Positions 2,345 through 13,296 of a stretch of 64,000 bases of DNA are shown piece after piece. Numbering within the stretch: the first letter of the stretch is position 1; each line of letters opens with the position of its first letter. The notes below the pieces were generated by a model, which ran no database searches, was not told where the DNA came from, and worked only from the letters and a program-made list of their open reading frames with translations. This DNA is from Frigoriflavimonas asaccharolytica (GTDB lineage Bacteria > Bacteroidota > Bacteroidia > Flavobacteriales > Weeksellaceae). The DNA lies in contig NZ_JABSNO010000002.1 of assembly GCF_013294015.1 (NCBI RefSeq), positions 124,001 through 188,000 of the forward strand, written 5' to 3'. The translations under genes and the position numbers were made by a program.

Positions 2345-2758
2345 TTAATGTGGAAGCTTATCCTTCAACAAACCATATACGAATGTTCCTAAAAGTGCAG
2401 CCGCAATCACAACTAAAATTGAAACATAGCCTGCACCAACTAAAATATACATTGGTCCTGGACAAGCGCCAGCTAAAGCCCAACCCAAACCGAATAGTGT
2501 ACCGCCAATTAAATATCTTGCCACACCTTTTTCTTTTGGATTTAAAGCCATGTCTTGTTTTCCTATAGCTTTTAAGTTTTTTCTTTTGATAATTTGTACG
2601 CCTATTATTCCTAAAACTACAGCAGAACCAATGATTCCAAACATATGAAAAGAGCCAAACTGGAACATTTCATAAATACGAAACCAAGAAGCTGCCTCAG
2701 ATTTGTATAAAACAATACCTATAAAAACACCGATTGCTAAAAATTTTAAATATTTCAT
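2345..2758 (-). CDS. YeeE/YedE (DUF6691-like) membrane protein, second half-transporter
   Basis: This 137-residue protein has about four membrane helices. It carries the YeeE/YedE motif GACPGPMYILVGAG, whose cysteine is expected to relay sulfur in thiosulfate transporters of the TsuA type. It starts at the ATG at 2758, which overlaps the TGA of the preceding gene (ATGA), so the two are translationally coupled. An upstream in-frame extension to 2884 lies wholly within the other gene and is not used. Together the two genes look like the two halves of a longer single-chain YeeE protein. The likely role is import of thiosulfate or another sulfur compound across the inner membrane. The family is clear; the substrate is inferred. 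Confidence 0.85.
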   Translation of the reverse strand: MKYLKFLAIGVFIGIVLYKSEAASWFRIYEMFQFGSFHMFGIIGSAVVLGIIGVQIIKRKNLKAIGKQDMALNPKEKGVARYLIGGTLFGLGWALAGACPGPMYILVGAGYVSILVVIAAALLGTFVYGLLKDKLPH

Positions 2759-3318
2759 ATACCAAAAATTAATGGAAAAATTAAATGAATCATCACCAAT
2801 CCGCCAACGAAAAAGCCAATAACTGCAAGTAGGGAAGGCATTTGCAAATTGCTTAATCCAGAAATGGCGTGACCAGAAGTACAACCACCAGCGTAACGAG
2901 CACCAAAGCCAACTAAAAATCCACCAATGATTAATATGGCCAAATTAAAAGGGCTAGAAAGATTCTCGATACCAAAAATTTCTGTTGGTAAATAAGCTTT
3001 TCCTGCGCTTTTTATGCCGTAATCTTGAGACAATTGCGCCGCAACTTCAGGATTGATTGCTACAGCATTATTAGACATAAAATTTGAGGCGAGAAATCCA
3101 CCAATGATTGATCCTAAAACCACAACTAAATTCCAACGTTGAGCGCGCCAATCAAACTTAAAAAAATCTGAAATTTTTCCGGCGCCTCCAATTGCGCATA
3201 TTGTACGCAGATTGGACGACATACCAAATTGTTTACCGCTAAAAAGCAATAAAAACATTCCCAAAGCGATGAGCGGACCTGCCACGTACCACGGCCAAGG
3301 TTCGTAAATCCAAGTCAT
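2755..3318 (-). CDS. YeeE/YedE family membrane protein, first half-transporter
   Basis: This 187-residue protein has four or five membrane helices and the YeeE/YedE signature ARYAGGCTSGHAISGLS near residue 145; the cysteine in GGCTSGH is the conserved sulfur-relay residue of the family. The ATG at 3318 is preferred over an in-frame TTG at 3333 because MTWIYEPWPWY is a sensible N-terminus and a -7 element at 3331-3338 would overlap the longer start. It is the first gene of a two-gene operon with the 137-residue partner, joined by an ATGA overlap. It lies downstream of the SQR transcription unit, so it probably takes part in sulfur-compound uptake in this sulfur cluster. Confidence 0.85.
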   Translation of the reverse strand: MTWIYEPWPWYVAGPLIALGMFLLLFSGKQFGMSSNLRTICAIGGAGKISDFFKFDWRAQRWNLVVVLGSIIGGFLASNFMSNNAVAINPEVAAQLSQDYGIKSAGKAYLPTEIFGIENLSSPFNLAILIIGGFLVGFGARYAGGCTSGHAISGLSNLQMPSLLAVIGFFVGGLVMIHLIFPLIFGI

Positions 3319-3330
3319 ATTTTTTTTGGG

Positions 3331-3338
3331 CAAAAATA
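3331..3338 (-). promoter_or_regulatory. -7 promoter element for the YeeE/YedE operon
   Basis: Read on the minus strand this is TATTTTTG, a match to the Bacteroidota -7 consensus TAnnTTTG, 12 bp upstream of the ATG at 3318. Unlike the other sulfur promoters nearby, no TGTRA-N6-TYACA dyad lies 33 bp further upstream. Confidence 0.45.
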
Positions 3339-3553: not shown

Positions 3554-3790
3554 ACCTGTTGTGCATTTGGGAAAAGATTTTTAACCTAAAGAATTTCAAT
3601 CACTTACATTTATTTTAAGTAAGCAAAGAATGCGAATATTCGCATTTGAAGCGAACGCTTCATCAAATCTGCTTGCAGATTCCACTTTGCTAACTTAAAT
3701 ATGGTGTAAAAAAAATAAACTTTGCGTTTAATTTTTTTAATTAACTGATAATATAAGTTTTATATTTTAAACTCTGAATGCACAACAGGT
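3554..3790. mobile_element. MITE-like element with 14-bp inverted ends and 9-bp target duplication
   Basis: The 237-bp element begins with ACCTGTTGTGCATT (3554-3567) and ends with the exact inverse (3777-3790). It is flanked directly by identical 9-bp copies of TCAATTCTA at 3545-3553 and 3791-3799, as expected of a target-site duplication made by a DDE transposase. It holds no convincing ORF, so it would have to be moved in trans by an insertion sequence elsewhere with the same ends. The class of that IS is not visible here. The insertion lies 2 bp past the stop codon of the small ORF at 3802-3933 and separates it from its terminator. Confidence 0.85.
3615..3698. repeat. Four-way-junction (cloverleaf) fold inside the MITE
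   Basis: An outer stem pairs TTAAGTAAGCAAAG (3615-3628) with CTTTGCTAACTTAA (3685-3698), 13 of 14 positions. It encloses three hairpins side by side: the perfect palindrome AATGCGAATATTCGCATT (3629-3646), GAAGCG-AA-CGCTTC (3648-3661) and AATCTGC-TT-GCAGATT (3666-3681). Nearly every base between 3615 and 3698 can pair. I do not recognise a known structured RNA; it does not have tRNA features such as a T-arm GTTC or a sensible anticodon loop. Confidence 0.7.
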
Positions 3791-3801
3791 TCAATTCTAG
3801 A

Positions 3802-3998: not shown

Positions 3999-5459
3999 TT
4001 ATTCTGGAATCAACCACCAAAACGGACGCATTTTAGCTTTCCAAATAAAAGCATAATGCAAGGAAAGTTTCACCCAATGTCCTGCTAAACCGATGTCTCC
4101 AAATGTTTTTTTGATATCTCTTCCACCTGTGTTTGGATATTTTACATAATCTGGAACGATTGGGTAAGTTGTGATGCTCACTCCGCTTCCTTTCGTTAAT
4201 CCAAACCCTGCAGAAGCAATACAAGCAGCGCCCATATTTCCCATAGATCCTTTGTGATGAAGCGATTCTTTGCCAGATTTAATAGAATCTATAATATTAT
4301 CGGCAACAAGTTTGGCAGTGATTCCAGAAGGCATTCCTGTTCTTGGTGGTGCTGGTGTAATATCCGTTCCATTTTTACTTTTTCTTGGTTTTGAAATAGA
4401 ATGTGGTGGTGCAAAAGCAATACCTGGGGCAAAAATATTTTTATAAGATGGATTTTGATAGGTTTCTGGCCAATCTTGTACAGTCCATTCTTCATAAGGT
4501 CTTTGGGTATAATCTGCATCTACAATCATAAAACCTTTAAATAATTTTTCGGTGATTTCATTATCATTTTTATCAAATGCTTGAAAACCGTGGCCAGAAA
4601 AAGCTGGGATTAACATTCCGAAATCGAAATTTTCAGTTTTATATTCACCATCTAAATTTTCGTAATGAAGGATTCCATCTTCAACTTTAGTAACGGCTGC
4701 ACCTAAAATCCAATTGATGCCTCTATCTTCAAACACCATTTCTATCAGGTCTTTTGAGCGCATATTGATGCCACCATAATCCAGCAACATTCCATCCATA
4801 CCGAAATCTCCGAGTTCATATTCGTTGGAAATCCAAGTAACTTCTACCTTATCTCTTACGCCAAAACTCACTAATTCTTTTTCTACATTCAAAATATATT
4901 CAAAAGCAGCACCTTGACAAGTGGCTTTTGCATGGCCCGTTCCGATAAGAATTTTTACTTTTTTATCAGATTTTTTTATTTCATTTATTAATTTATGCAA
5001 CGCTTCGGAAGCATGGGCAGCATGGTCATAAGTACAAACCGAGTAAACTTTGTTGGTTGCGGGTGATAAGCCTTCGGTTAAATCAAAGGCTAATTTTGGT
5101 CCGGTAGCATTAATTAAATAATCGTAGTTTACAATTTCTTGCGTGCCCCGTTTTTCCCCGTAAACATATTCTACTTTTACAAATCCTTTCGTTTCTTGGG
5201 CATTCCCTTCTGGATGAAAAGACACTGCTTTTGCTTGTTTGTAGCCAATTCCTTTTCTTTTATATAAAGGTTCAAGAGGAAAAATCACATCTTTTGCTTT
5301 CATTTTACCAGTTCCTACCCAAATATTTGAGGGGAACCATTGGAAATTATGAGTGGGCGAAACCACTAAAACTTCATGTTCCTTGCCTAATTTTTTACGC
5401 AAATGAGAGGCGGCTGTATGGCCAGAAATTCCAGCACCTAAAATAACTATTTTTGACAT
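3999..5459 (-). CDS. sqr: Sulfide:quinone oxidoreductase-like flavoprotein
   Basis: This 486-residue FAD protein starts with a dinucleotide-binding motif (GAGISGHTAA, residues 8-17). It has three cysteines, at about 142, 181 (ATCQGAAFEY) and 413, comparable to the three redox cysteines of SQR enzymes. It ends in an aromatic tail (MRPFWWLIPE) suited to binding the membrane surface. The expected reaction is oxidation of sulfide to protein-bound or soluble persulfide with electrons passed to quinone. Neighbouring persulfide dioxygenase-rhodanese, YeeE and TauE genes fit this role. It has its own promoter with a Crp/Fnr-like dyad at 5509-5524. The alternative is a flavocytochrome c sulfide dehydrogenase-like oxidoreductase. 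NDH-2 is unlikely because that enzyme is encoded at 23406. Confidence 0.85.
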   Translation of the reverse strand: MSKIVILGAGISGHTAASHLRKKLGKEHEVLVVSPTHNFQWFPSNIWVGTGKMKAKDVIFPLEPLYKRKGIGYKQAKAVSFHPEGNAQETKGFVKVEYVYGEKRGTQEIVNYDYLINATGPKLAFDLTEGLSPATNKVYSVCTYDHAAHASEALHKLINEIKKSDKKVKILIGTGHAKATCQGAAFEYILNVEKELVSFGVRDKVEVTWISNEYELGDFGMDGMLLDYGGINMRSKDLIEMVFEDRGINWILGAAVTKVEDGILHYENLDGEYKTENFDFGMLIPAFSGHGFQAFDKNDNEITEKLFKGFMIVDADYTQRPYEEWTVQDWPETYQNPSYKNIFAPGIAFAPPHSISKPRKSKNGTDITPAPPRTGMPSGITAKLVADNIIDSIKSGKESLHHKGSMGNMGAACIASAGFGLTKGSGVSITTYPIVPDYVKYPNTGGRDIKKTFGDIGLAGHWVKLSLHYAFIWKAKMRPFWWLIPE

Positions 5460-5479: not shown

Positions 5480-5524
5480 CAAAGTTAGTTACTTACGCTT
5501 TGCTATACTGTAACCTTTATTACA
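5480..5524 (-). promoter_or_regulatory. SQR promoter with Crp/Fnr-like site
   Basis: The dyad TGTAACCTTTATTACA (5509-5524) fits TGTAA-N6-TTACA. On the minus strand the -7 element TAACTTTG lies at 5487-5480. The two centres are 33 bp apart, which puts the dyad near -41 from the expected start of transcription. The ATG follows 20 bp after the -7 element. The same geometry recurs at four other promoters in this cluster. Confidence 0.75.
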
Positions 5525-5568
5525 TAGAAAGGTATTTGTAGAATGTTTTATTTAAAAATTGTCGTACT

Positions 5569-5865
5569 TTATTTATTCAATTTATTTTTCAAATATTTAA
5601 TGGCTATCAAACCAATTGCGCCGCCAAAGAATGATACTAAAATATTGATTGTAAGCAAAGTAACGTTGTAAGATCCTGTTTTCATAATCGAAAAAGGATC
5701 AAAACCTAATCTTCCAAATGATTTAATGAAAAATATGCTGCCAAAAACACCAGCAATGGTATTTCCGATAAGTCCAAAAGAGTACTTTTTGAAAATTATA
5801 CCCGCAAAATTTCCTCCTATAATTCCTACAAAAATGCTGATTAAAGATATTAATGTCTGTGTCAT
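5569..5865 (-). CDS. Hypothetical small glycine-rich membrane protein
   Basis: This 98-residue protein has three or four hydrophobic segments with many glycines (GIIGGNFAG, GLIGNTIAGVFGSIF, FFGGAIGLIAIKY) and a lysine-rich tail. The pattern of glycines in helices suggests tight helix packing. It starts 14 bp after the cydB stop codon on the same strand and is probably part of the cydAB transcript. It is too long to be the small CydX/CydS subunit and I do not recognise it. A role in assembly or stability of the bd oxidase is possible but untested. Confidence 0.65.
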   Translation of the reverse strand: MTQTLISLISIFVGIIGGNFAGIIFKKYSFGLIGNTIAGVFGSIFFIKSFGRLGFDPFSIMKTGSYNVTLLTINILVSFFGGAIGLIAIKYLKNKLNK

Positions 5866-5879
5866 CAGTTAGTATTTAA

Positions 5880-6956
5880 TTAATGTTTTCCGTAATCCAT
5901 TTTATCTATTTTTCCAGCCAACAATCTTTTTTGAACAATGAAGTAAATAAAAATCAGAGAAAAACCTATAATTCCCCACACTAAAGCGACGGACAAACCA
6001 TATTCTTCTGCGGAAGTATTATAAATGGTTAAAGATTCATTAACATTATTGATAGATGGCAATATTACTGGAAACAATGATGCGAGCGACGAGGTAATTC
6101 CACCTAAAATGATTAAAGTTGAAAATATAAAACCGTAAATGTCTTTTTTTAATTTTTTAATGTAAAATAATCCGATTAATCCTGTAAAATAGATGATTGG
6201 AAAGACGATTAGGTAAGGCTTTTCAAAGAAATTATTTAATGATTCTGGACGCACAATTTGCCAAACAGAAAGCGATAAAACGGTAAGAATTGCCAAAGCA
6301 ATATTTAATTTAAAAATGACACTTTTAAGTTTTTCATTTATTGATGAGTTGGTTTTAAGAATAATCCAATTGGCACCGTGCATCGCTAAAGTTACTACAG
6401 AAATTACTCCAATAATTATTGTAAACCAATCTATAATTCCTGGCGTTGCACTTAGCGGGCTGAAACTACTATCCCACAAAGGCAAGAAAAAATATTGACC
6501 TTCATGCGTTGAAATTCCGTTTTCTACACCGCCCAAATTTACTCCTCTTACAATATTTCCCAAAGCAATTCCGAAAAATAATGCCAACAATAAACTAGAA
6601 ACTCCAAACGAAGCGTCCCAAATATCTTTCCACATTTGATAATTAAATTGTGCTCTAAATTCCAAACCAATTGCTCGAAAAACAATGAGCCACAAAACGA
6701 TAATTAATGGTAAATAAAACCCACTAAAAACGGAAGCGTAAAAAGTAGGAAAAGCCATGAAAAGCATTCCACCACCTGCTACAAGCCACACTTCATTAGA
6801 ATCCCAAAATAATCCGGCAGATTTTGTAATTACTTCTTTATCTTCTTCATTTTTTGCGAAAAATAAATGAATAATTCCTGCGCCAAAATCATAACCATCT
6901 AATATAAAAAACATCGCTAATACTATTGCAATTGCTATAAACCAAAATATTTCCAT
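5880..6956 (-). CDS. cydB: Cytochrome bd oxidase subunit II
   Basis: This 358-residue integral membrane protein has about nine helices and CydB-type sequence: FILDGYDFGAGIIHL near residue 20, DSNEVWLVAGGGMLFMAFP near residue 55 and a later WQIVRPES stretch. It pairs with CydA to form the quinol oxidase that reduces oxygen to water without pumping protons. The gene begins 2 bp after the cydA stop. Cytochrome bd enzymes are known to tolerate sulfide better than haem-copper oxidases, which fits its position between SQR and oxidant-defence genes. Confidence 0.95.
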   Translation of the reverse strand: MEIFWFIAIAIVLAMFFILDGYDFGAGIIHLFFAKNEEDKEVITKSAGLFWDSNEVWLVAGGGMLFMAFPTFYASVFSGFYLPLIIVLWLIVFRAIGLEFRAQFNYQMWKDIWDASFGVSSLLLALFFGIALGNIVRGVNLGGVENGISTHEGQYFFLPLWDSSFSPLSATPGIIDWFTIIIGVISVVTLAMHGANWIILKTNSSINEKLKSVIFKLNIALAILTVLSLSVWQIVRPESLNNFFEKPYLIVFPIIYFTGLIGLFYIKKLKKDIYGFIFSTLIILGGITSSLASLFPVILPSINNVNESLTIYNTSAEEYGLSVALVWGIIGFSLIFIYFIVQKRLLAGKIDKMDYGKH

Positions 6957-6958
6957 AA

Positions 6959-8290
6959 TTAATGTGTTTGTGGTTTTGGACCTTGATTAATAGCTTTACC
7001 TACCAATAGTAGAAAAAGCAAACCTAGTAACATATAAAGTGCTACAAAACCGAGTAATGTGAATAATGTATTTCCTGATGAAACGGTGGGTGAAATTCCG
7101 TCTGCAGTTTTTAACAAACCATAAACCAAATACGGCTGTCTGCCCAATTCTGCGGTATACCAACCCGTAAGATTTGCGATGTATGGAAACGGAACCAAGA
7201 ACATAATCGTCCAAAGTAAGATTTTTGTTTTGTATAATTTATGGCGCCATAAAAAGATGAATGCAACCAACATTACTCCGATAAAAACGGTACCCAATCC
7301 AACCATAATGTGGTAAGAATAGTACAATGCAGGAATATTATCTGGCAATTCTTCTTTTTTAAATTGATCCATTCCCGGTACTTGTTTATCCCATTCTTGA
7401 TACGTAAGAAAACTTAAAACATTGGGAACTGCAATTTTATTATCCAATTTTTTTGCAACCATATTGGGTTGACCAATGAGCACAATTTCTGCTCCTTTTT
7501 CTTCTGTTTTAAAGATTCCTTCCATTGCCGCAAAACTACCTGGTTGATGTTTTGCTACATTTTTCGCATTCCAATCTCCAGTAGGAAATGCCAACAAAAC
7601 ACTAGAAATCAAACCGAAAATAACGCCCGTTTTTAAAAATAATTTACCATATTCTATTTGTTTTTTTCTTAAAATATAAAAAGAACCAATACTCGCAACT
7701 ACAAATGAAGAAGTAACAACAGATGCCAACTGATTATGTAAAAAAGCCGGTAAAAGCCAAGGATTGCTAAATAGTGCAGAAAAATTATTTAATACAAATT
7801 TTCCATTGTCTAAAATTTCAAAACCCACGGGATGTTGCATCCACGCGTTGGTTGCTAAGATAAACCAACCACTTGCCCAAGAACCTAAAAAGACCAGAAA
7901 GCCAGTAAGAAAATGCAGTTTTTGCCCCATTAATTTTTCACCGAAAATAAAAAGTGCTAAAAATGAGGATTCTAAAAAGAAGGAAAACATACCTTCCATT
8001 GCTAAAGTTTGACCGATAATTCCACCAGTTAATTCTGAAAATTTTGCCCAATTGGTACCAAATTGAAATTCCATCGGTATTCCTGTGACGACGCCCATGG
8101 TGAAATTAATGGCGAAAATCTTCATGAAGAATTTCGCAGCATTGTTGTATTTATCAATATTGGTTCTTAGGAATTTCCATTTGAAAAAGACGATCAATAA
8201 AGACAATCCCATCGTTAATTGCGGAAATATGTAGTGAAAGGTGATCGTGAAGGCAAATTGCAAGCGATCGTAAAAAATCATGTCTTCCAT
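6959..8290 (-). CDS. cydA: Cytochrome bd oxidase subunit I
   Basis: This 443-residue protein is CydA: it opens with FYDRLQFAFTITFHYIFPQLTMG-type sequence, giving a haem-ligand histidine at residue 19 as in the E. coli protein, and has the WYTAELGRQP motif near residue 375. At this length it has the short Q-loop form. I start at the ATG at 8290; a longer start at 8320 would put the start codon inside the stem of the terminator at 8312-8337 and spoil the histidine-19 register. No clear -7 element lies between that hairpin and 8290, so expression may depend on read-through from the peroxiredoxin promoter. Confidence 0.93.
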   Translation of the reverse strand: MEDMIFYDRLQFAFTITFHYIFPQLTMGLSLLIVFFKWKFLRTNIDKYNNAAKFFMKIFAINFTMGVVTGIPMEFQFGTNWAKFSELTGGIIGQTLAMEGMFSFFLESSFLALFIFGEKLMGQKLHFLTGFLVFLGSWASGWFILATNAWMQHPVGFEILDNGKFVLNNFSALFSNPWLLPAFLHNQLASVVTSSFVVASIGSFYILRKKQIEYGKLFLKTGVIFGLISSVLLAFPTGDWNAKNVAKHQPGSFAAMEGIFKTEEKGAEIVLIGQPNMVAKKLDNKIAVPNVLSFLTYQEWDKQVPGMDQFKKEELPDNIPALYYSYHIMVGLGTVFIGVMLVAFIFLWRHKLYKTKILLWTIMFLVPFPYIANLTGWYTAELGRQPYLVYGLLKTADGISPTVSSGNTLFTLLGFVALYMLLGLLFLLLVGKAINQGPKPQTH

Positions 8291-8311
8291 AAAAGGATTT
8301 TTAGAATGTAA

Positions 8312-8337
8312 AAAGAGCATTTATAAAAATGCTCTTT
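8312..8337 (-). terminator. Terminator or attenuator between peroxiredoxin and cydA
   Basis: AAAGAGCAT (8312-8320) and ATGCTCTTT (8329-8337) form a perfect 9-bp stem with an 8-nt loop. On the minus strand it is followed by a run of T. It lies 11 bp after the peroxiredoxin stop and 21 bp before the chosen cydA ATG, so it could end the peroxiredoxin message or only dampen read-through into cydAB. Confidence 0.75.
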
Positions 8338-8348
8338 AAGGTTTTATA

Positions 8349-9071
8349 TTATTTCTTCAGAATTTCGCTTAAAATTAAATCTTTATCTAATTTTTTGGTA
8401 CAGAAAAACCAATCTTCGCATTCCAATTCGTCTGTGCTATTCATTCTTTGTTCTGCAACTCCACAAGAACCAGCGGGCGAAACGATCACATCATCTCCGG
8501 GATTCCAATCTGCTGGTGTTGCCACATTAAATTTATCGGAAGTTTGCATGGCGATTAATGCTCTGTAAAGCTCATCAAAATTACGTCCCAAACTTAAAGG
8601 ATAATAAATTAATGCTCTTACAATTCCTGCTGGATCTACAAAAAAAACGGCTCTCACTGCTTGTGTTTTGCTTTCTCCAGGTTGAATCATGCCATATTTT
8701 TTAGCAACATTCATAGAAATGTCTTCTATCAAAGGAAATTTAACTTCAATGTTTTCCATTCCGTTAAATTTAATTTTTTCTTTTATGGTTCTTAACCAAG
8801 CAATATGACTGTATAAACCATCAATTGATAAACCTACCAAATTGCAATTTGCCTTTTTAAATTTATCTTCTAAATGTGCAAACGTCATAAATTCTGACGT
8901 ACAAACTGGCGTAAAATCTGCAGGATGGCTGAACAAAATTGCCCATTCTCCTTTATAATCTGATGGGAAATTAATTTCGCCTTGTGTAGTAGTTGCCGTA
9001 AATTCTGGTGCTTTATCACCAATTCTTGGCATGGTGAAGGTTTCTTGATTTTGATTTTCTGTAGTATCCAT
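8349..9071 (-). CDS. Peroxiredoxin (AhpC/TSA family, Prx6-like)
   Basis: This 240-residue thiol peroxidase has the active-site stretch HPADFTPVCTSEF, with the peroxidatic cysteine at about residue 57. Its long C-terminal part holds further cysteines near residues 202, 217 and 223, one of which could act as resolving thiol. Length and motif match the Prx6-like group more than the 190-residue AhpC group. It should reduce hydrogen peroxide and organic peroxides in the cytoplasm. It has its own promoter with a Crp/Fnr-like dyad at 9127-9142, the same type as dps upstream and SQR downstream, which ties it to the sulfur and redox regulon. Confidence 0.92.
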   Translation of the reverse strand: MDTTENQNQETFTMPRIGDKAPEFTATTTQGEINFPSDYKGEWAILFSHPADFTPVCTSEFMTFAHLEDKFKKANCNLVGLSIDGLYSHIAWLRTIKEKIKFNGMENIEVKFPLIEDISMNVAKKYGMIQPGESKTQAVRAVFFVDPAGIVRALIYYPLSLGRNFDELYRALIAMQTSDKFNVATPADWNPGDDVIVSPAGSCGVAEQRMNSTDELECEDWFFCTKKLDKDLILSEILKK

Positions 9072-9097
9072 AATAGTGTATTTGCTTTAATTTTAAG

Positions 9098-9142
9098 TAA
9101 AGTTACCACTTCAGAATCCCGGAATATGTAACAAATATCACA
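9098..9142 (-). promoter_or_regulatory. Peroxiredoxin promoter with Crp/Fnr-like site
   Basis: The dyad TGTAACAAATATCACA (9127-9142) fits TGTAA-N6-TCACA. The minus-strand -7 element TAACTTTA is at 9105-9098 and is one base off TAnnTTTG. The centres are 33 bp apart, exactly as in the SQR, dps, MBL-rhodanese and TauE promoters. The ATG is 26 bp beyond the -7 element. Confidence 0.75.
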
Positions 9143-9189
9143 GTAACTGCCTTTTTTTGGTAAAACTGATATAACTTAGTTTAAAAAAA

Positions 9190-9217
9190 AAGTCTGAACA
9201 AGTAAATGCTCAGACTT
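9190..9217 (-). terminator. Terminator of dps
   Basis: AAGTCTGA (9190-9197) pairs with TCAGACTT (9210-9217) in a perfect 8-bp stem, followed on the minus strand by a run of T. It lies 18 bp beyond the dps stop codon and separates dps from the peroxiredoxin promoter. Confidence 0.8.
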
Positions 9218-9235
9218 CAGTTTTAAATAAATATT

Positions 9236-9709
9236 TTAATCTTGATAAGCAGATAACATCCAGATCAATTTTTCCTGTTGAACGATATAATCGCTCATTT
9301 GCGAAACAGTTCCTTCGTCATTTGCATCTGCTGCTAGAGATAAAATAATACGTTCTTTAGAAAGTAAAATCTTAAAATCTTTCAAAATTTCATCAATTGC
9401 AATTTCGCCATCTGTAATGTTCTCCGCAGTCTTTATTTCTGAGATTTCTACATATTTTGCAAAAGAATGGAAAGGTGTTTCATTTAATGTTAAAATTCTT
9501 TCTGCAATTTCATCTACTTTTATTACTGCGTCATTATACAATTCTTCAAATTTTAAATGCAATTCAAAAAATTTTCTTCCTTTTATATTCCAATGAAAGC
9601 CTCTCAAATTCATATAAAACAATTGATAATTTGATAGCAAATCATTTAATTTTTCTGCAATTTTTGTCGCCTTAATGTTATCTAAACCAATATTGTTTGT
9701 GTTTACCAT
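9236..9709 (-). CDS. dps: Dps family DNA-binding / iron-storage protein
   Basis: This 157-residue ferritin-like protein has the Dps dinuclear-centre residues in FHWNIKGRKFFELHLKFEE and the following DEIAERI helix. Dps dodecamers oxidise ferrous iron with hydrogen peroxide at subunit interfaces, store the iron and so protect DNA. The N-terminus is short with only a few lysines, so direct DNA binding is uncertain. It is transcribed alone, from a promoter carrying a Crp/Fnr-like dyad at 9768-9783 and ending at the terminator at 9190-9217. Confidence 0.93.
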   Translation of the reverse strand: MVNTNNIGLDNIKATKIAEKLNDLLSNYQLFYMNLRGFHWNIKGRKFFELHLKFEELYNDAVIKVDEIAERILTLNETPFHSFAKYVEISEIKTAENITDGEIAIDEILKDFKILLSKERIILSLAADANDEGTVSQMSDYIVQQEKLIWMLSAYQD

Positions 9710-9738
9710 TTTTGTAATTTTTATATTTAAATTATACT

Positions 9739-9783
9739 CAAATATAGCGATTAAATTTTAATCATTCTGTAACAATTATCACT
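9739..9783 (-). promoter_or_regulatory. dps promoter with Crp/Fnr-like site
   Basis: The dyad TGTAACAATTATCACT (9768-9783) fits TGTAA-N6-TCACA with one mismatch at the last base. The minus-strand -7 element TATATTTG lies at 9746-9739, and the two centres are 33 bp apart. The ATG follows 29 bp later. Confidence 0.75.
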
Positions 9784-9831
9784 TAAACTAATAATTATTA
9801 AAAATAATAACTTCGTAATTAATGAAAATAA

Positions 9832-10437
9832 TTAAATCTTCCTGCCTACAAATTGTATGACTTCGGCTTCACCTTTATGTCTTTCACCTTCTGCAAGAAT
9901 AACCGTGTTTTGTTCTAAAATTTCAAAATTTAATTCTAAAAATTCTTCTTCAATTTCCTTTAATGAAAATAGCATCTCGAGATTTTTTGATCCACCAGAA
10001 GATTTTGAATATTGTTCTTTTGCAAAAGCCTCAAAAATAATAAGACCATCTTTTTTTAAGAATTGTAATAAATGTTTATGGGCTTTTTTTCGAATATCAG
10101 TTGGGAAATGGGCGAAAAATAATCCGATAACATCAAATTGTTCTTTAGTTTCAAAATTGAGTACATCATTTACCACATAATTAATCTCAACATTATTGTC
10201 TGCTGCAAGTTTTAATGCTTTATTTTTACCAGTATCACTACTATCAAAAGCATGCACATCCCAAAGTTTTGTAGCCGCATAAACTGCATTTCTACCTTCA
10301 CCTTCGGCTGCAAAAAGAATTTTGCCTTTAGGTAGATTGTTAATCTGCTCTTTAAAAAATGCATTTGGCGAAGTACCATAAACGTATTCTGGTGTTTCGT
10401 AAAATTGGTTCCAAAAATCTGCGGGATATTCTTTCAT
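9832..10437 (-). CDS. Class I SAM-dependent methyltransferase (TehB/TPMT-like)
   Basis: This 201-residue protein starts with the FWNQFYETPEYVYGTSPNAF stretch common to small tellurite- or thiopurine-type methyltransferases. It has a SAM-binding region in LFAAEGEGRNAVYAA with an acidic residue after the second strand (AFDSS), and motif IV-like VIGLFFAHFP. It probably methylates a small, soft nucleophile; a thiol or chalcogen substrate would fit the sulfur cluster but is inferred. It stands between dps and the membrane methyltransferase, with 92 bp separating it from the latter. No Crp/Fnr-like dyad is seen upstream. Confidence 0.8.
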   Translation of the reverse strand: MKEYPADFWNQFYETPEYVYGTSPNAFFKEQINNLPKGKILFAAEGEGRNAVYAATKLWDVHAFDSSDTGKNKALKLAADNNVEINYVVNDVLNFETKEQFDVIGLFFAHFPTDIRKKAHKHLLQFLKKDGLIIFEAFAKEQYSKSSGGSKNLEMLFSLKEIEEEFLELNFEILEQNTVILAEGERHKGEAEVIQFVGRKI

Positions 10438-10529
10438 ATATAAATTTTATTATTTTTTAATTTTACTTTGCGCCAATAAAACTTCTTCATCTCTATGTTT
10501 AAATTTATGAAAAGTGATTTAATATTATC

Positions 10530-10979
10530 CTAAATAAATCTTCGGGTTTTGCTTTTATAACTTTCATATTCAGGAAATTTTTTTGAAAGTAGCGTTTCTT
10601 CGTATTTAGATTTGAAATAAAATAATACTGCTAAAATAAATGTAATCAATAACTTATAAAGTGATTCTTGGTGTATGCCGTAACCAATTCCAGAAAAAAG
10701 TAAACCTGTATAGATTGGATGCCTTGATATTGAAAATGCACCGGTAGTCATTAATTTTCCCGCCTGAACTGGCGTTGGAAATGGCGAAATATTTTTATTG
10801 AGTTGTGCTACAGTTAATAGAGCCAGTAAAAGTGCCAAAATCAACATAAATAAACCCAAATAGCGAAGCCATTCGGGTAAATTTATAGTTGAGATTGTTA
10901 TTGGCAAACTATACGCTGCGAAAATCAGCAGTTGAATAGTTACAAATAAGTAGTCTTTTAAAGGTTTAGTATTTTTCAA
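10530..10979 (-). CDS. Membrane methyltransferase, isoprenylcysteine carboxyl methyltransferase-like
   Basis: This 149-residue protein has four membrane helices and the ICMT/PEMT-type C-terminal pattern: SRHPIYTG followed by a hydrophobic pair and a KYEE...FPEYESYK tail that binds SAM. Family members methylate lipids, thiols or prenylcysteine; the substrate here is unknown. The start is TTG at 10979, which overlaps the TGA of the MBL-rhodanese gene as TTGA. The next in-frame ATG would remove the first helix, so the TTG is probably real and translation is coupled to the upstream gene. Confidence 0.78.
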   Translation of the reverse strand: MKNTKPLKDYLFVTIQLLIFAAYSLPITISTINLPEWLRYLGLFMLILALLLALLTVAQLNKNISPFPTPVQAGKLMTTGAFSISRHPIYTGLLFSGIGYGIHQESLYKLLITFILAVLFYFKSKYEETLLSKKFPEYESYKSKTRRFI

Positions 10980-12307
10980 TCTTGAAATTGTGTCACATCA
11001 TCACTTAAATCATAAACTTTTGCATTAGGCAATTTGCTTTCTATAATGCTGCTTCCAGCTGCACTTCTATATCCACCAGCACAATGCACCACGATTTGCT
11101 TATCCGTTGGAATTTGAGAGGCCGTATCTCGCAAGTCACTTAGTGGATGCGTGAAAGCATTATTAAAAAATAGACCTGCGTCTGTTTCAGTTTTATTGCG
11201 AATATCTACAATTGTATAATTTTCTGGATGTTTTTTAAAATCTTCTAGATCTAATTTATCATCGGTTTCTAAATGGTCTTTTGCCAAAGTAATCACTTCT
11301 TTCACCATCGTTTCATAGCCGATTTTAGCAATTCTATTCAGCATTTGGTCTTTATCTTCTTTGGAATCTACTACCAAGGTGAATTTTTCTTCAGGTTTAA
11401 TAATTGCACCCAACCAAGTCTCAAATTTTTGAGTGTCTGTACTAGCTTGTATATTGATGCTACCCTTTAAATGTCCTTTTTTAAATTTTTCTTCCGCTCT
11501 TGCGTCTACAATTAGACCTTCTGCAGTTGCATTTTCTCTGAATGGAATATTTGCAAGTGAAGCATCCAAGTTTTTTGCACCTTCTTTATTAATGCCCACA
11601 TTAAAACCAAAATAAAACGGAATAATTGGCTGACCATCTAAAATAGTTTCCATAAATTCTTCTTTGGATTGTTTTTTAAACGCCCAATTATGATTTCTTT
11701 CGTCACCCAAAGTACTGCTTGCAGCATCACTTAAATTTTTTCCACAAAGCGAACCTGCGCCATGAGCGGGGTAAACCACCGCATCGTTTGGTAAATCTGT
11801 GAATTTATTTTGCACCGTTTCATACATCATTTCTGCTAATTCTTCTCTTTTTGCCTTCATATTTCCGGCTTTTTCACGAAGATCTGGTCTTCCCACATCA
11901 CCAATAAATAAAGTATCACCCGTAAAAAGCTCCGTTTTATCTCCTTCTGTGGCTACAATTGTGATGCTATCTGGTGAATGTCCCGGTGTATTTATTGCTT
12001 TCAATGTCGCGTTTCCTAATTGAAAAGTATCTCCTTCATCAAAACCTTTGTGCGGATAATCTGCACCCAACATTTCACTATTATAGATAGTTGCGCCCGT
12101 TTCTTGGTGTATTTGCAAGTGAGAACTCACAAAATCTGCGTGCGGATGCGTTTGGAAAATAGCGACAATCTCTGCATTATTTTCTTTTGCAAAATCATAA
12201 TATTGTTGTGGGTCTCTTTCCGCATCTATCACTGCCATTTTTCCCTCGCTGATTATAGCGTAAGAATAATGAGAAAGTGGTTTGTATTCAAATTGTTTTG
12301 TGATCAT
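10976..12307 (-). CDS. Persulfide dioxygenase-like MBL-fold protein with two rhodanese domains
   Basis: This 443-residue protein begins with an ETHE1-type metallo-beta-lactamase domain (about residues 1-230) with THPHADF (metal ligands near 54-58), TPGHSPDS, and the GDTLFIGDVGRPDL motif typical of persulfide dioxygenases. Two rhodanese domains follow. The first (about 250-335) lacks the catalytic cysteine, with VVDSKEDKD at that position. The second (about 345-443) has VVHCAGGYRSA with the active cysteine. It should oxidise glutathione- or other low-molecular persulfide to sulfite and transfer sulfane sulfur, acting after SQR; TauE next door could export the sulfite. It has its own promoter with a Crp/Fnr-like dyad. 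Confidence 0.9.
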   Translation of the reverse strand: MITKQFEYKPLSHYSYAIISEGKMAVIDAERDPQQYYDFAKENNAEIVAIFQTHPHADFVSSHLQIHQETGATIYNSEMLGADYPHKGFDEGDTFQLGNATLKAINTPGHSPDSITIVATEGDKTELFTGDTLFIGDVGRPDLREKAGNMKAKREELAEMMYETVQNKFTDLPNDAVVYPAHGAGSLCGKNLSDAASSTLGDERNHNWAFKKQSKEEFMETILDGQPIIPFYFGFNVGINKEGAKNLDASLANIPFRENATAEGLIVDARAEEKFKKGHLKGSINIQASTDTQKFETWLGAIIKPEEKFTLVVDSKEDKDQMLNRIAKIGYETMVKEVITLAKDHLETDDKLDLEDFKKHPENYTIVDIRNKTETDAGLFFNNAFTHPLSDLRDTASQIPTDKQIVVHCAGGYRSAAGSSIIESKLPNAKVYDLSDDVTQFQD

Positions 12308-12326
12308 ATTGCTATTATTTAAAGTA

Positions 12327-12371
12327 CAAATTTACGTATATTTTAGAGTTGGTTTTGTGACATTAGTTACA
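12327..12371 (-). promoter_or_regulatory. MBL-rhodanese promoter with Crp/Fnr-like site
   Basis: The dyad TGTGACATTAGTTACA (12356-12371) fits TGTGA-N6-TTACA. The minus-strand -7 element TAAATTTG lies at 12334-12327, and centres are 33 bp apart. The ATG follows 19 bp later. Confidence 0.78.
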
Positions 12372-12432
12372 ACTGGAATTATTTGATTGTAAATACCGTT
12401 GTATTTAGTCTTAGTTAAAAACTAGTTTAATT

Positions 12433-13236
12433 TTAAAAAAATATTTCTTTAGATAAAATATAAATCCCCATTATTAAAACAAACCATCCAAAACTAGTTT
12501 TTAATTTTTTACCGTCAATAAATTTATTTAAATAAATACCGAGAAATATTCCTGCAATTGCAACACCAGTAAATGGCAATAAAAATTTCCAGTCGATTTG
12601 GATTTCATTCACATCACCTAAAAAACCAATCAAAGAACTGATGGCAATAATGAAAAGGGAAGTGGCAACGGCTTTTTTTATAGGTAAGTCAGCCAATAAT
12701 ACTAATATTGGAATAATGATAAAACCACCACCTGCACCAACTATTCCTGTAATTAATCCAGTTAAAAGTCCTAACATTGCTAAAATGAATTTATTGCTTG
12801 GCTGCTCGTCATTTTCACTTTTTAAACTTCCAGAAGTGTTTTTTATCATTGCTATAGATGCAGTTAACATCAATATTGCAAAAAAGACCATTATGGCAAT
12901 ATCTTTTGTTAATGTAAAATCTCCTATTGAGAAAAGTGTTTCAGGAATGGCTGGAACTAAGAATTTACGAACGCTAAAAACTGAAATAACTGCGGGAATC
13001 GCAAAGGTAAGCGCTGTTTTAAAATCAATTAAACCTTTTTGTACGTTTTTACCAGAACCAACAAGCGCAACTCCACCAACTACAAATAAAGAATAAGCAG
13101 TTGCTGTAACGGGTTCTATTTCAAGTAAGTATACGAATATGGGAACTGTTAAAATAGAACCACCACCACCTATTAGTCCTAGAATAACTCCAATAATTAA
13201 TGCTCCAAGATATCCTAAAATTAATATAAGGTCCAT
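12433..13236 (-). CDS. TauE/SafE family sulfite / anion exporter
   Basis: This 267-residue protein has eight predicted membrane helices and the two glycine-rich repeats of the TauE/SafE family (GLIGGGGSILTVP near residue 20 and GIVGAGGGFIIIPIL near residue 165). Family members move sulfite, sulfoacetate or related anions out of the cell. Next to the persulfide dioxygenase-like protein, sulfite export is the natural hypothesis. It is a single gene with its own promoter, bearing a Crp/Fnr-like dyad at 13281-13296. Confidence 0.9.
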   Translation of the reverse strand: MDLILILGYLGALIIGVILGLIGGGGSILTVPIFVYLLEIEPVTATAYSLFVVGGVALVGSGKNVQKGLIDFKTALTFAIPAVISVFSVRKFLVPAIPETLFSIGDFTLTKDIAIMVFFAILMLTASIAMIKNTSGSLKSENDEQPSNKFILAMLGLLTGLITGIVGAGGGFIIIPILVLLADLPIKKAVATSLFIIAISSLIGFLGDVNEIQIDWKFLLPFTGVAIAGIFLGIYLNKFIDGKKLKTSFGWFVLIMGIYILSKEIFF

Positions 13237-13251
13237 TTGTAAGAATTTTTA

Positions 13252-13296
13252 CAAATTTAAAGGTACTATTTTGAAGATTTCGTAACAAATGTTACA
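13252..13296 (-). promoter_or_regulatory. TauE promoter with Crp/Fnr-like site
   Basis: The dyad CGTAACAAATGTTACA (13281-13296) fits TGTAA-N6-TTACA with one mismatch in the first base; its core GTAAC-N4-GTTAC is a perfect inverted repeat. The minus-strand -7 element TAAATTTG lies at 13259-13252, 33 bp centre to centre. The ATG follows 15 bp later. Confidence 0.78.

Follow-up and report, generated by a model that had tools for sequence, protein, structure and literature searches.

What ties together five promoters that stand before rather different genes in one small part of the Frigoriflavimonas asaccharolytica genome? The stretch analyzed here, hereafter the window, is 64 kb long (contig NZ_JABSNO010000002.1; C2:124001-188000 of the 3.43-Mb draft genome G000) and holds genes for a sulfide:quinone oxidoreductase (SQR), a peroxiredoxin, a Dps-like ferritin, a metallo-β-lactamase (MBL)-fold protein with rhodanese stretches and a TauE/SafE exporter. 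We propose that these genes belong to a compact regulon for sulfur stress under P0001, a Crp/Fnr-type activator encoded elsewhere in the genome, and put the probability of this reading at roughly 0.78. The evidence that carries it consists of the computed sites, their fixed spacing, their conservation, their linkage to the regulator gene and their co-variation with its recognition helix.

Direct reading and measurement located five 16-bp dyads on the minus strand, at 5509, 9127, 9768, 12356 and 13281, each lying exactly 21 bp upstream of a -7 box of the TAnnTTTG type. Dyad and box together span 45 bp in all five promoters and lie 33 bp apart from centre to centre. The SQR promoter (5480..5524) combines the dyad TGTAATAAAGGTTACA (5509-5524) with the box TAACTTTG (5480-5487), and the peroxiredoxin promoter (9098..9142) the dyad TGTGATATTTGTTACA (9127-9142) with the box TAACTTTA (9098-9105, one mismatch). 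In the dps promoter (9739..9783) the dyad AGTGATAATTGTTACA (9768-9783, one mismatch) is followed by the box TATATTTG (9739-9746). The promoters of MBL-rhodanese (12327..12371; dyad TGTAACTAATGTCACA, 12356-12371; box 12327-12334) and TauE (13252..13296; dyad TGTAACATTTGTTACG, 13281-13296, one mismatch; box 13252-13259) share the box TAAATTTG. By itself, the dyad is weak evidence for a regulon, with 18 matches in the window at up to one mismatch versus 11.65 ± 3.32 in shuffles, 5 of 100 of which reach as high. Combined with a constant distance to the -7 box, it becomes strong evidence: allowing one mismatch in all, five sites occur at gap 21 versus two at all 22 remaining gaps from 10 to 32 together, and 100 dinucleotide shuffles of the window give a mean of 0.01 gap-21 sites and a maximum of 1. 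An original prediction made from the letters of this DNA had described the five dyads with at most one mismatch, the 33-bp centre distance and the 45-bp spans, and had judged five equal spacings improbable by chance; its positions and distances were reproduced, and the shuffles bear out its judgment. A further perfect TGTRA-N6-TYACA dyad over the tauE start region (13238-13253) breaks the extended consensus, has no box at gap 21 and was taken as chance.

Across G000, the dyad with up to one mismatch occurs at 169 places versus 115 for the reversed pattern. Nine dyads are perfect; those at C4:100528, C10:24404 and C12:55157 are intragenic, have no spaced box and were rejected as chance. The full-site consensus, TGTRAYN4RTYACA-N21-TANNTTTG, has ten matches when one mismatch is allowed: the five window sites plus C4:45479, C4:48558, C4:56779, C4:163517 and C31:25151. 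At two mismatches it gives 15 places versus 10 for the reversed pattern, and these weaker sites are therefore noise. The four sites on C4 precede genes for a rhodanese, a TolC protein, a Tll0287-like heme lipoprotein (PF11845) and an M28 peptidase with a PDZ domain; the TolC gene is followed by MFP and RND genes, named by eye, in an apparent RND efflux operon. A site profile (R1), built from 26 sites and used to score 150 candidates per genome (150 of 5797 in G000), returned nine sites at E < 0.1, namely the ten minus C31:25151, ahead of an intragenic match with E 0.158. With all nine among the training sequences of the profile, the set in G000 comprises at least nine promoters, and the earlier count of five was too low. 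The omitted C31:25151 (L060) has a perfect dyad and, at gap 21, a box with one mismatch; it is absent from the profile matches up to E 1 and was left out. It adjoins the gene of a wingless Crp-like protein (C31:24657), upstream of small cysteine-containing proteins, and perhaps belongs to a different regulon.

The regulator had been expected outside the window, and the window indeed contains no match to PF00027 (Crp/Fnr) within its 64 kb. Ten PF00027 proteins are encoded in G000, all on contigs other than the window's. One of them, P0001 (202 aa, G000:C4:44875-45483), adjoins further copies of the site and, judged by its sequence, is apparently the Crp/Fnr regulator of the site-bearing promoters. 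It matches PF00027 with 45.3 bits (cut-off 27.5) and PF13545, the Crp winged helix, with 42.2 bits (cut-off 27), and thus has both the cyclic-nucleotide-type beta barrel and the Crp-type winged helix of the superfamily. Only one other protein of the ten, C7:103398, matches PF13545, and its recognition helix reads TATESAIR (TESAIR at the contact positions). The recognition helix of P0001 reads ITREATSRVLK, with R, E and R at the positions of CRP R180, E181 and R185 (numbered as in the available text of PMC1274295), and P0001 is the sole member of the ten to have both an intact winged helix and R-E-x-x-x-R. A rhodanese gene lies directly behind the P0001 gene, whose 3' end extends into the dyad of the rhodanese promoter. 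A fold search of the PDB with P0001 (Foldseek) found 508 chains at E ≤ 0.001, and the 50 listed are all of the Crp/Fnr type, with TM-scores of about 0.5. Eight of the ten Crp-like proteins (C4:140324, C10:5921, C6:160898, C4:76039, C31:24657, C6:155896, C1:156195 and C10:1839) stop at or soon after the recognition helix and have no wing.

We surveyed 148 Weeksellaceae genomes at least 90% complete, taken from a larger group, in which orthologous promoters of related species are not independent of each other. Exact sites at gap 21 number 75 in 40 of these genomes; the reversed pattern gives none. With the gap left free between 10 and 32, 136 exact dyad/box pairs were obtained, 75 of them at gap 21, 15 at 22, 8 at 20, 7 at 19 and 8 at 30, with at most 4 at each remaining gap, and the reversed control gave 9 in all. 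At E ≤ 1e-20, a permissive limit under which proteins of about 33% identity still count, 120 of the 148 genomes have a P0001 homologue. Exact sites occur in 40 of the 120 genomes with a homologue versus 0 of the 28 without (Fisher p 5e-5, uncorrected for relatedness). A listed regulator homologue is found within 15 kb of at least 19 of the 75 exact sites, where about 1 would be expected; because the regulator list is incomplete, this count is a lower bound and the expectation rough. Profile R1 gave a best match of E ≤ 3.6e-5 in 7/7 regulator-bearing genomes (three of the seven, G000, G134 and G143, had contributed to its training set), versus nothing under E 0.1 in 8/8 genomes taken from the 28 without a regulator, at 150 candidates each. 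The motif scan and the search for a co-occurring regulator that had been suggested as checks both link the sites to P0001 homologues. As a separate observation, divergent promoters of another layout form a conserved family in G054, G111, G124, G095, G102 and G006; their dyads (for example TGTGATACTGGTTACA) are followed by boxes at gaps of 19 and 30.

Outside the training set, profile matches precede tauE in G105 (E 8e-5) and G143 (E 0.04) and an MBL-rhodanese homologue in G102 (E 0.02); a match before the peroxiredoxin gene of G134 (E 0.17) scores no better than chance. A TauE homologue is the first long open reading frame (ORF) after sites in G109, G117, G114, G018, G105 and G143, a Dps homologue in G115 (L160) also has an exact site, and PF03601, DsrE-like and thioredoxin proteins follow sites in the family set. 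Downstream genes were taken as the first ATG ORF of at least 60 aa, which can be wrong (three rows are noted as such), and the number of sites in the family loci read for downstream genes proves nothing because these loci were mostly fetched for holding a site. Conservation upstream of orthologues had been named as one point on which the prediction could fail. It held for SQR, whose orthologues (E ≤ 1e-60) occur in ten of the 148 genomes, the own one included: all ten have a perfect upstream dyad; in eight the box stands at gap 21 and deviates at no more than one base, and in G064 and G073 it fits either gap 21 or gap 22, with one to two mismatches. It held as well for five of the six peroxiredoxin orthologues (E ≤ 1e-90, own included), which have a gap-21 site with at most one mismatch in all. 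It did not hold in the same way for MBL-rhodanese, to which we return below.

Is the link between site and regulator confined to this family? Using an alignment of 26 regulators (A1), we fetched loci from named Bacteroidota, keeping the best 80 of 494 relatives by regulator similarity. They come from Kaistella, Chryseobacterium, Epilithonimonas, Cytophagales, Chitinophagaceae, Mucilaginibacter, Pedobacter, Fluviicola and others, with some species overlapping with the family survey, and they test the link between site and regulator because they were picked by protein and not by site. These best 80 of 494 loci hold 75 gap-21 sites, in 54 loci, versus eight at the 22 other gaps; exact sites number 14 at gap 21 versus two elsewhere, and the reversed control gives none. 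The first ORF after the site encodes a rhodanese in 26 cases, TolC in 16, TauE in 7, the heme lipoprotein in 2, an SQR-like protein (24% identity), an MBL-rhodanese, an RND protein or the regulator itself once each, and other proteins in 20; three of the last, compared with Pfam, proved to be one YgaP-like membrane protein (PF11127) and two DUF6132 proteins. As for P0001, many of these loci have the site beginning where the regulator gene ends. The locus of Kaistella jeonii DSM 17048 (L231), for example, combines the regulator with sites before rhodanese, TolC and heme-lipoprotein genes. Relatives of the regulator and its sites recur across several orders of Bacteroidota.

The recognition helix varies among these proteins, and the sites appear to vary with it in part. 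Fifty-five of the 80 regulators have R-E in the helix and 25 have R followed by V, T or A; a linked site was found in 51/55 of the former versus 3/25 of the latter. A search for sites near the genes of RV-type regulators gave nothing clear. In the family, TGTAAC half-sites accompany the class C regulators (R-V), position 4 being A in 23/24; with RE-type regulators this position is G or A, with G in 24/48 half-sites in the family and 56/88 in the named loci. These half-site counts are uncorrected for relatedness; those of the family cover only loci whose genome had one hand-assigned regulator class, with identical dyads counted once, and omit the mixed or undecided L060, L156, L157, L160, L182-L186, L193, L195-L197, L201, L209 and L211-L213. 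A like correlation for residues 180/181 in other Crp/Fnr regulons is described in the available part of PMC1274295.

In E. coli, CRP and FNR activate class II promoters from a site centred at -41.5. The TAnnTTTG box of Flavobacterium psychrophilum lies at -12 to -5 according to the accessible text of PMC9723704; its centre is at -8.5 and a dyad 33 bp further upstream is therefore centred at -41.5, the class II position, if the start is as in F. psychrophilum. This agrees with the earlier placement of the dyad near -41 and, by analogy, would be the strongest hint of activation. We infer that a P0001 dimer would bind TGTRAY-N4-RTYACA centred at -41.5 and, through a class II contact with RNA polymerase, would switch on at least nine promoters. 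In the window its targets would be SQR, peroxiredoxin, dps, MBL-rhodanese and TauE; elsewhere they would be the rhodanese behind the regulator gene, the TolC heading the RND efflux operon, the Tll0287-like heme lipoprotein and the M28/PDZ peptidase. The products would serve sulfide oxidation, persulfide sulfur transfer and oxidation, export of sulfur species and oxidant defence.

With E. coli CRP and FNR, P0001 shares the fold and the R-E-x-x-x-R helix, and it would share the TGTRA/TYACA half-sites and, on the same assumption about the start, the -41.5 centre. It has a single cysteine in place of the cysteine set of FNR and no arginine at the position aligned with CRP R82, and would act with a polymerase on the Bacteroidota TAnnTTTG box. 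FNR proper has four cysteines for its [4Fe-4S] cluster. R82 is the phosphate-binding arginine of the cyclic AMP (cAMP) pocket of CRP, and ...ERSAWV of CRP is aligned with ...KIKAIV of P0001. P0001 scores 55.9 bits against the cAMP-CRP equivalog model, whose cut-off is 266.

Which signal, then, would P0001 sense? The Crp/Fnr family signals known so far are cAMP, oxygen, NO, CO and 2-oxoglutarate. Our guess, from the target genes and Cys71, falls on reactive (sulfane) sulfur or a thiol oxidant akin to it, which would react with this cysteine at the edge of the segment that binds cAMP in CRP. Reactive sulfur is the likeliest signal because the targets include SQR, an MBL-rhodanese like 3tp9 and 3r2u, TauE and a rhodanese, a set that presumably resembles the staphylococcal cst operon. 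P0001 has no cysteine other than Cys71, which is part of GESC and immediately precedes the segment that aligns with the cAMP phosphate loop of CRP, at the edge of the effector pocket. It is invariant in 26/26 aligned regulators (A1) and 80/80 regulators of the named loci, of which 67 have one cysteine and 13 have two; conservation to this degree suggests reactive-sulfur sensing. We therefore see here a Crp/Fnr class II-type regulon with an unusual regulator, possibly one for sulfur sensing. More tentatively, and at somewhat less than even odds, P0001 may represent a Bacteroidota-wide Crp/Fnr branch that uses one cysteine, sited at the former cyclic-nucleotide pocket, to detect persulfide or polysulfide and that, as a class II activator, turns on the detoxification of sulfide and sulfane sulfur.

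Among rival signals, peroxide comes first. The same regulon and regulator might answer oxidative (peroxide or disulfide) stress or general redox state, with Cys71 a plain thiol switch. Dps and peroxiredoxin among the window targets speak for this, as do the site before the Dps homologue of G115 and the prospect that a sole conserved cysteine could react with peroxide too. We consider it unlikely, since the identified targets of the relatives are mostly sulfur-handling proteins (rhodanese, TauE, SQR, MBL-rhodanese, YgaP-like, DsrE-like and PF03601) and include no catalase, though many downstream genes remain without a name.

The regulator might also repress, the dyad next to the -7 box blocking polymerase until the signal removes the protein. 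The dyad would cover roughly -49 to -34, reaching the -33 region, and the MarR-family sulfur sensors are repressors in the available text of PMC11211675. One rigid spacing at -41.5 nevertheless fits polymerase contact, whereas a repressor tolerates variable positions; with gap 21 taking 75 of 136 family pairs and the next gap, 22, only 15, repression seems improbable.

That another Crp/Fnr member acts at the same sites, be it the FNR-like C7:103398, the wingless C31:24657 or an NO- or heme-sensing relative, likewise strikes us as improbable. HcpR2 binds the similar GTAACnnnnGTTAC (PMC1274295, available part), the Porphyromonas HcpR structure 9day is among the fold matches of P0001, and C31:24657 reads RETFVR and has a dyad beside its gene. 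Yet the Crp winged-helix family is matched by P0001 and C7:103398 only; the latter reads TESAIR at the contacts, C31:24657 stops right after the recognition helix, and the P0001 gene ends within the site, which in many loci also lies at the end of the gene of a P0001 relative. HcpR and HcpR2 are Crp/Fnr proteins too, and the HcpR2 motif resembles the sites of the class C relatives; according to the available text of PMC1274295, most HcpR2 have proline at 181 and their regulons mostly hold hcp only. P0001 has E at this position, where HcpR2 has Pro, Ser or Gln with hcp as core target. Unlike HcpR2, P0001 would have sulfur genes as targets, and no match to hcp was found among the first target genes of the nine G000 promoters. 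Chance matches combined with shared promoter ancestry can be dismissed: the window dyad alone is little above chance and related genomes inherit promoters, but the genes behind the five window promoters are unrelated to each other, the site recurs behind the regulator before non-homologous genes of different Bacteroidota orders, and both the shuffles (0.01) and the profile results in regulator-bearing versus regulator-lacking genomes contradict it.

Several observations weigh against a sulfur-stress regulon under P0001. No exact site is found in 80 of the 120 family genomes with a homologue, and 22 of the 25 loci whose regulator has V, T or A (among L286-L310) show no linked site; the regulator family is therefore not uniform. 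Class B regulators, also without E, have G at position 4 in 9/24 half-sites, and R-E-x-x-x-R occurs in the wingless second Crp-like protein as well. The nine G000 sites are in the training set of the profile, so that their recovery is by construction; one profile match, G143:C2:569003 (E 0.012), has no gap-21 pair within two mismatches, and those of three relatives (L338, L340 and L341) precede genes outside the identified sulfur set. Upstream of the sixth peroxiredoxin orthologue the site has four mismatches, and the single orthologue of MBL-rhodanese besides its own gene (E ≤ 1e-120) has a site with two mismatches at gap 21. The AlphaFold model of P0001 has a mean predicted local distance difference test (pLDDT) score of 79.5, with residues 73-81, adjoining Cys71, below 50; as a prediction it gives the Crp/Fnr fold but not the loop beside Cys71. 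Finally, the signal is read from target genes and one cysteine, and Dps and peroxiredoxin fit peroxide too.

To our knowledge none of CstR, SqrR/BigR/YgaV, FisR, OxyR, the MarR-family sensors and PerR is a Crp/Fnr protein. Several reactive-sulfur sensors need two cysteines, and the P0001 family differs from CstR, SqrR/BigR/YgaV and the like in having one conserved cysteine. Papers on bacterial reactive-sulfur sensors, PMC9774590 and PMC11211675 among them, treat CstR, SqrR/BigR, FisR, OxyR, MarR-type proteins and PerR; the term FNR is absent from these two, and Crp appears only in two Shewanella references of PMC9774590. Among the top matches of the open-licence literature, by titles and abstract starts, we found no regulator assigned to sulfide or persulfide handling in Bacteroidota and no description of the present regulon. 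The best match to P0001 in both sequence and fold is 3dv8, a structural-genomics Crp/Fnr protein of Eubacterium rectale annotated as a putative regulator only, which shows 24% identity in the fold alignment and has a cysteine aligned with Cys71. A CRP/FNR homologue of a Flavobacteriales metagenome-assembled genome, assigned loosely to MalR and carbohydrate control in the accessible text of PMC8510549, belongs to the same order; it is likened here by description only, and that text makes no sulfide link. The present analysis names a candidate regulator, its DNA site, the promoter geometry and the targets, with Cys71 as one residue for mutation. On the unusual TAnnTTTG promoters of Bacteroidota, a geometry of the class II type is kept over several orders and, if the sulfur signal is true, P0001 would be a single-cysteine, activator-type sulfur sensor within the Crp/Fnr family.

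All five target genes of the window lie on the minus strand. The SQR gene (3999..5459, 486 aa) encodes a Pyr_redox_2 protein that matches PDB 3sz0 and other SQRs (E 4.6e-38) and scores far under the NCBIfam equivalog cut-offs. The peroxiredoxin (8349..9071, 240 aa) has a 1-Cys-type C-terminal domain (PF00578 and PF10417) and matches NCBIfam PRK13189 above the cut-off; the Dps-like ferritin (9236..9709, 157 aa) matches PF00210. The MBL-fold protein (10976..12307, 443 aa; PF00753 and PF00581) has two rhodanese stretches, as in the persulfide-dioxygenase/rhodanese type, and matches 3tp9 (E 1.8e-58), 3r2u of S. aureus (E 2.9e-51) and ETHE1 4chl (E 3.9e-11), and the TauE/SafE exporter (12433..13236, 267 aa) matches PF01925 (E 3.7e-41).

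Between the peroxiredoxin gene and cydA lies a terminator-like hairpin (8312..8337, minus strand; -12.1 kcal/mol, z -5.1, 0/200 shuffles as stable). The scan placed it on the plus strand, and direct reading finds the T-run on the minus strand. It is likely a terminator, and read-through from the peroxiredoxin promoter into cydAB is doubtful because it lies between them; the cydA homologue of G030 is preceded by a site of its own (L334; profile E 2e-4). No dyad/box pair was seen upstream of the YeeE/YedE genes (2345-3333), either in the window scan or by eye. At about 3556-3797, a short inverted repeat seen by eye, CCTGTTGTGCATT ... AATGCACAACAGG, encloses about 240 bases in which no ORF reaches 40 aa, and looks like a small non-coding mobile element.

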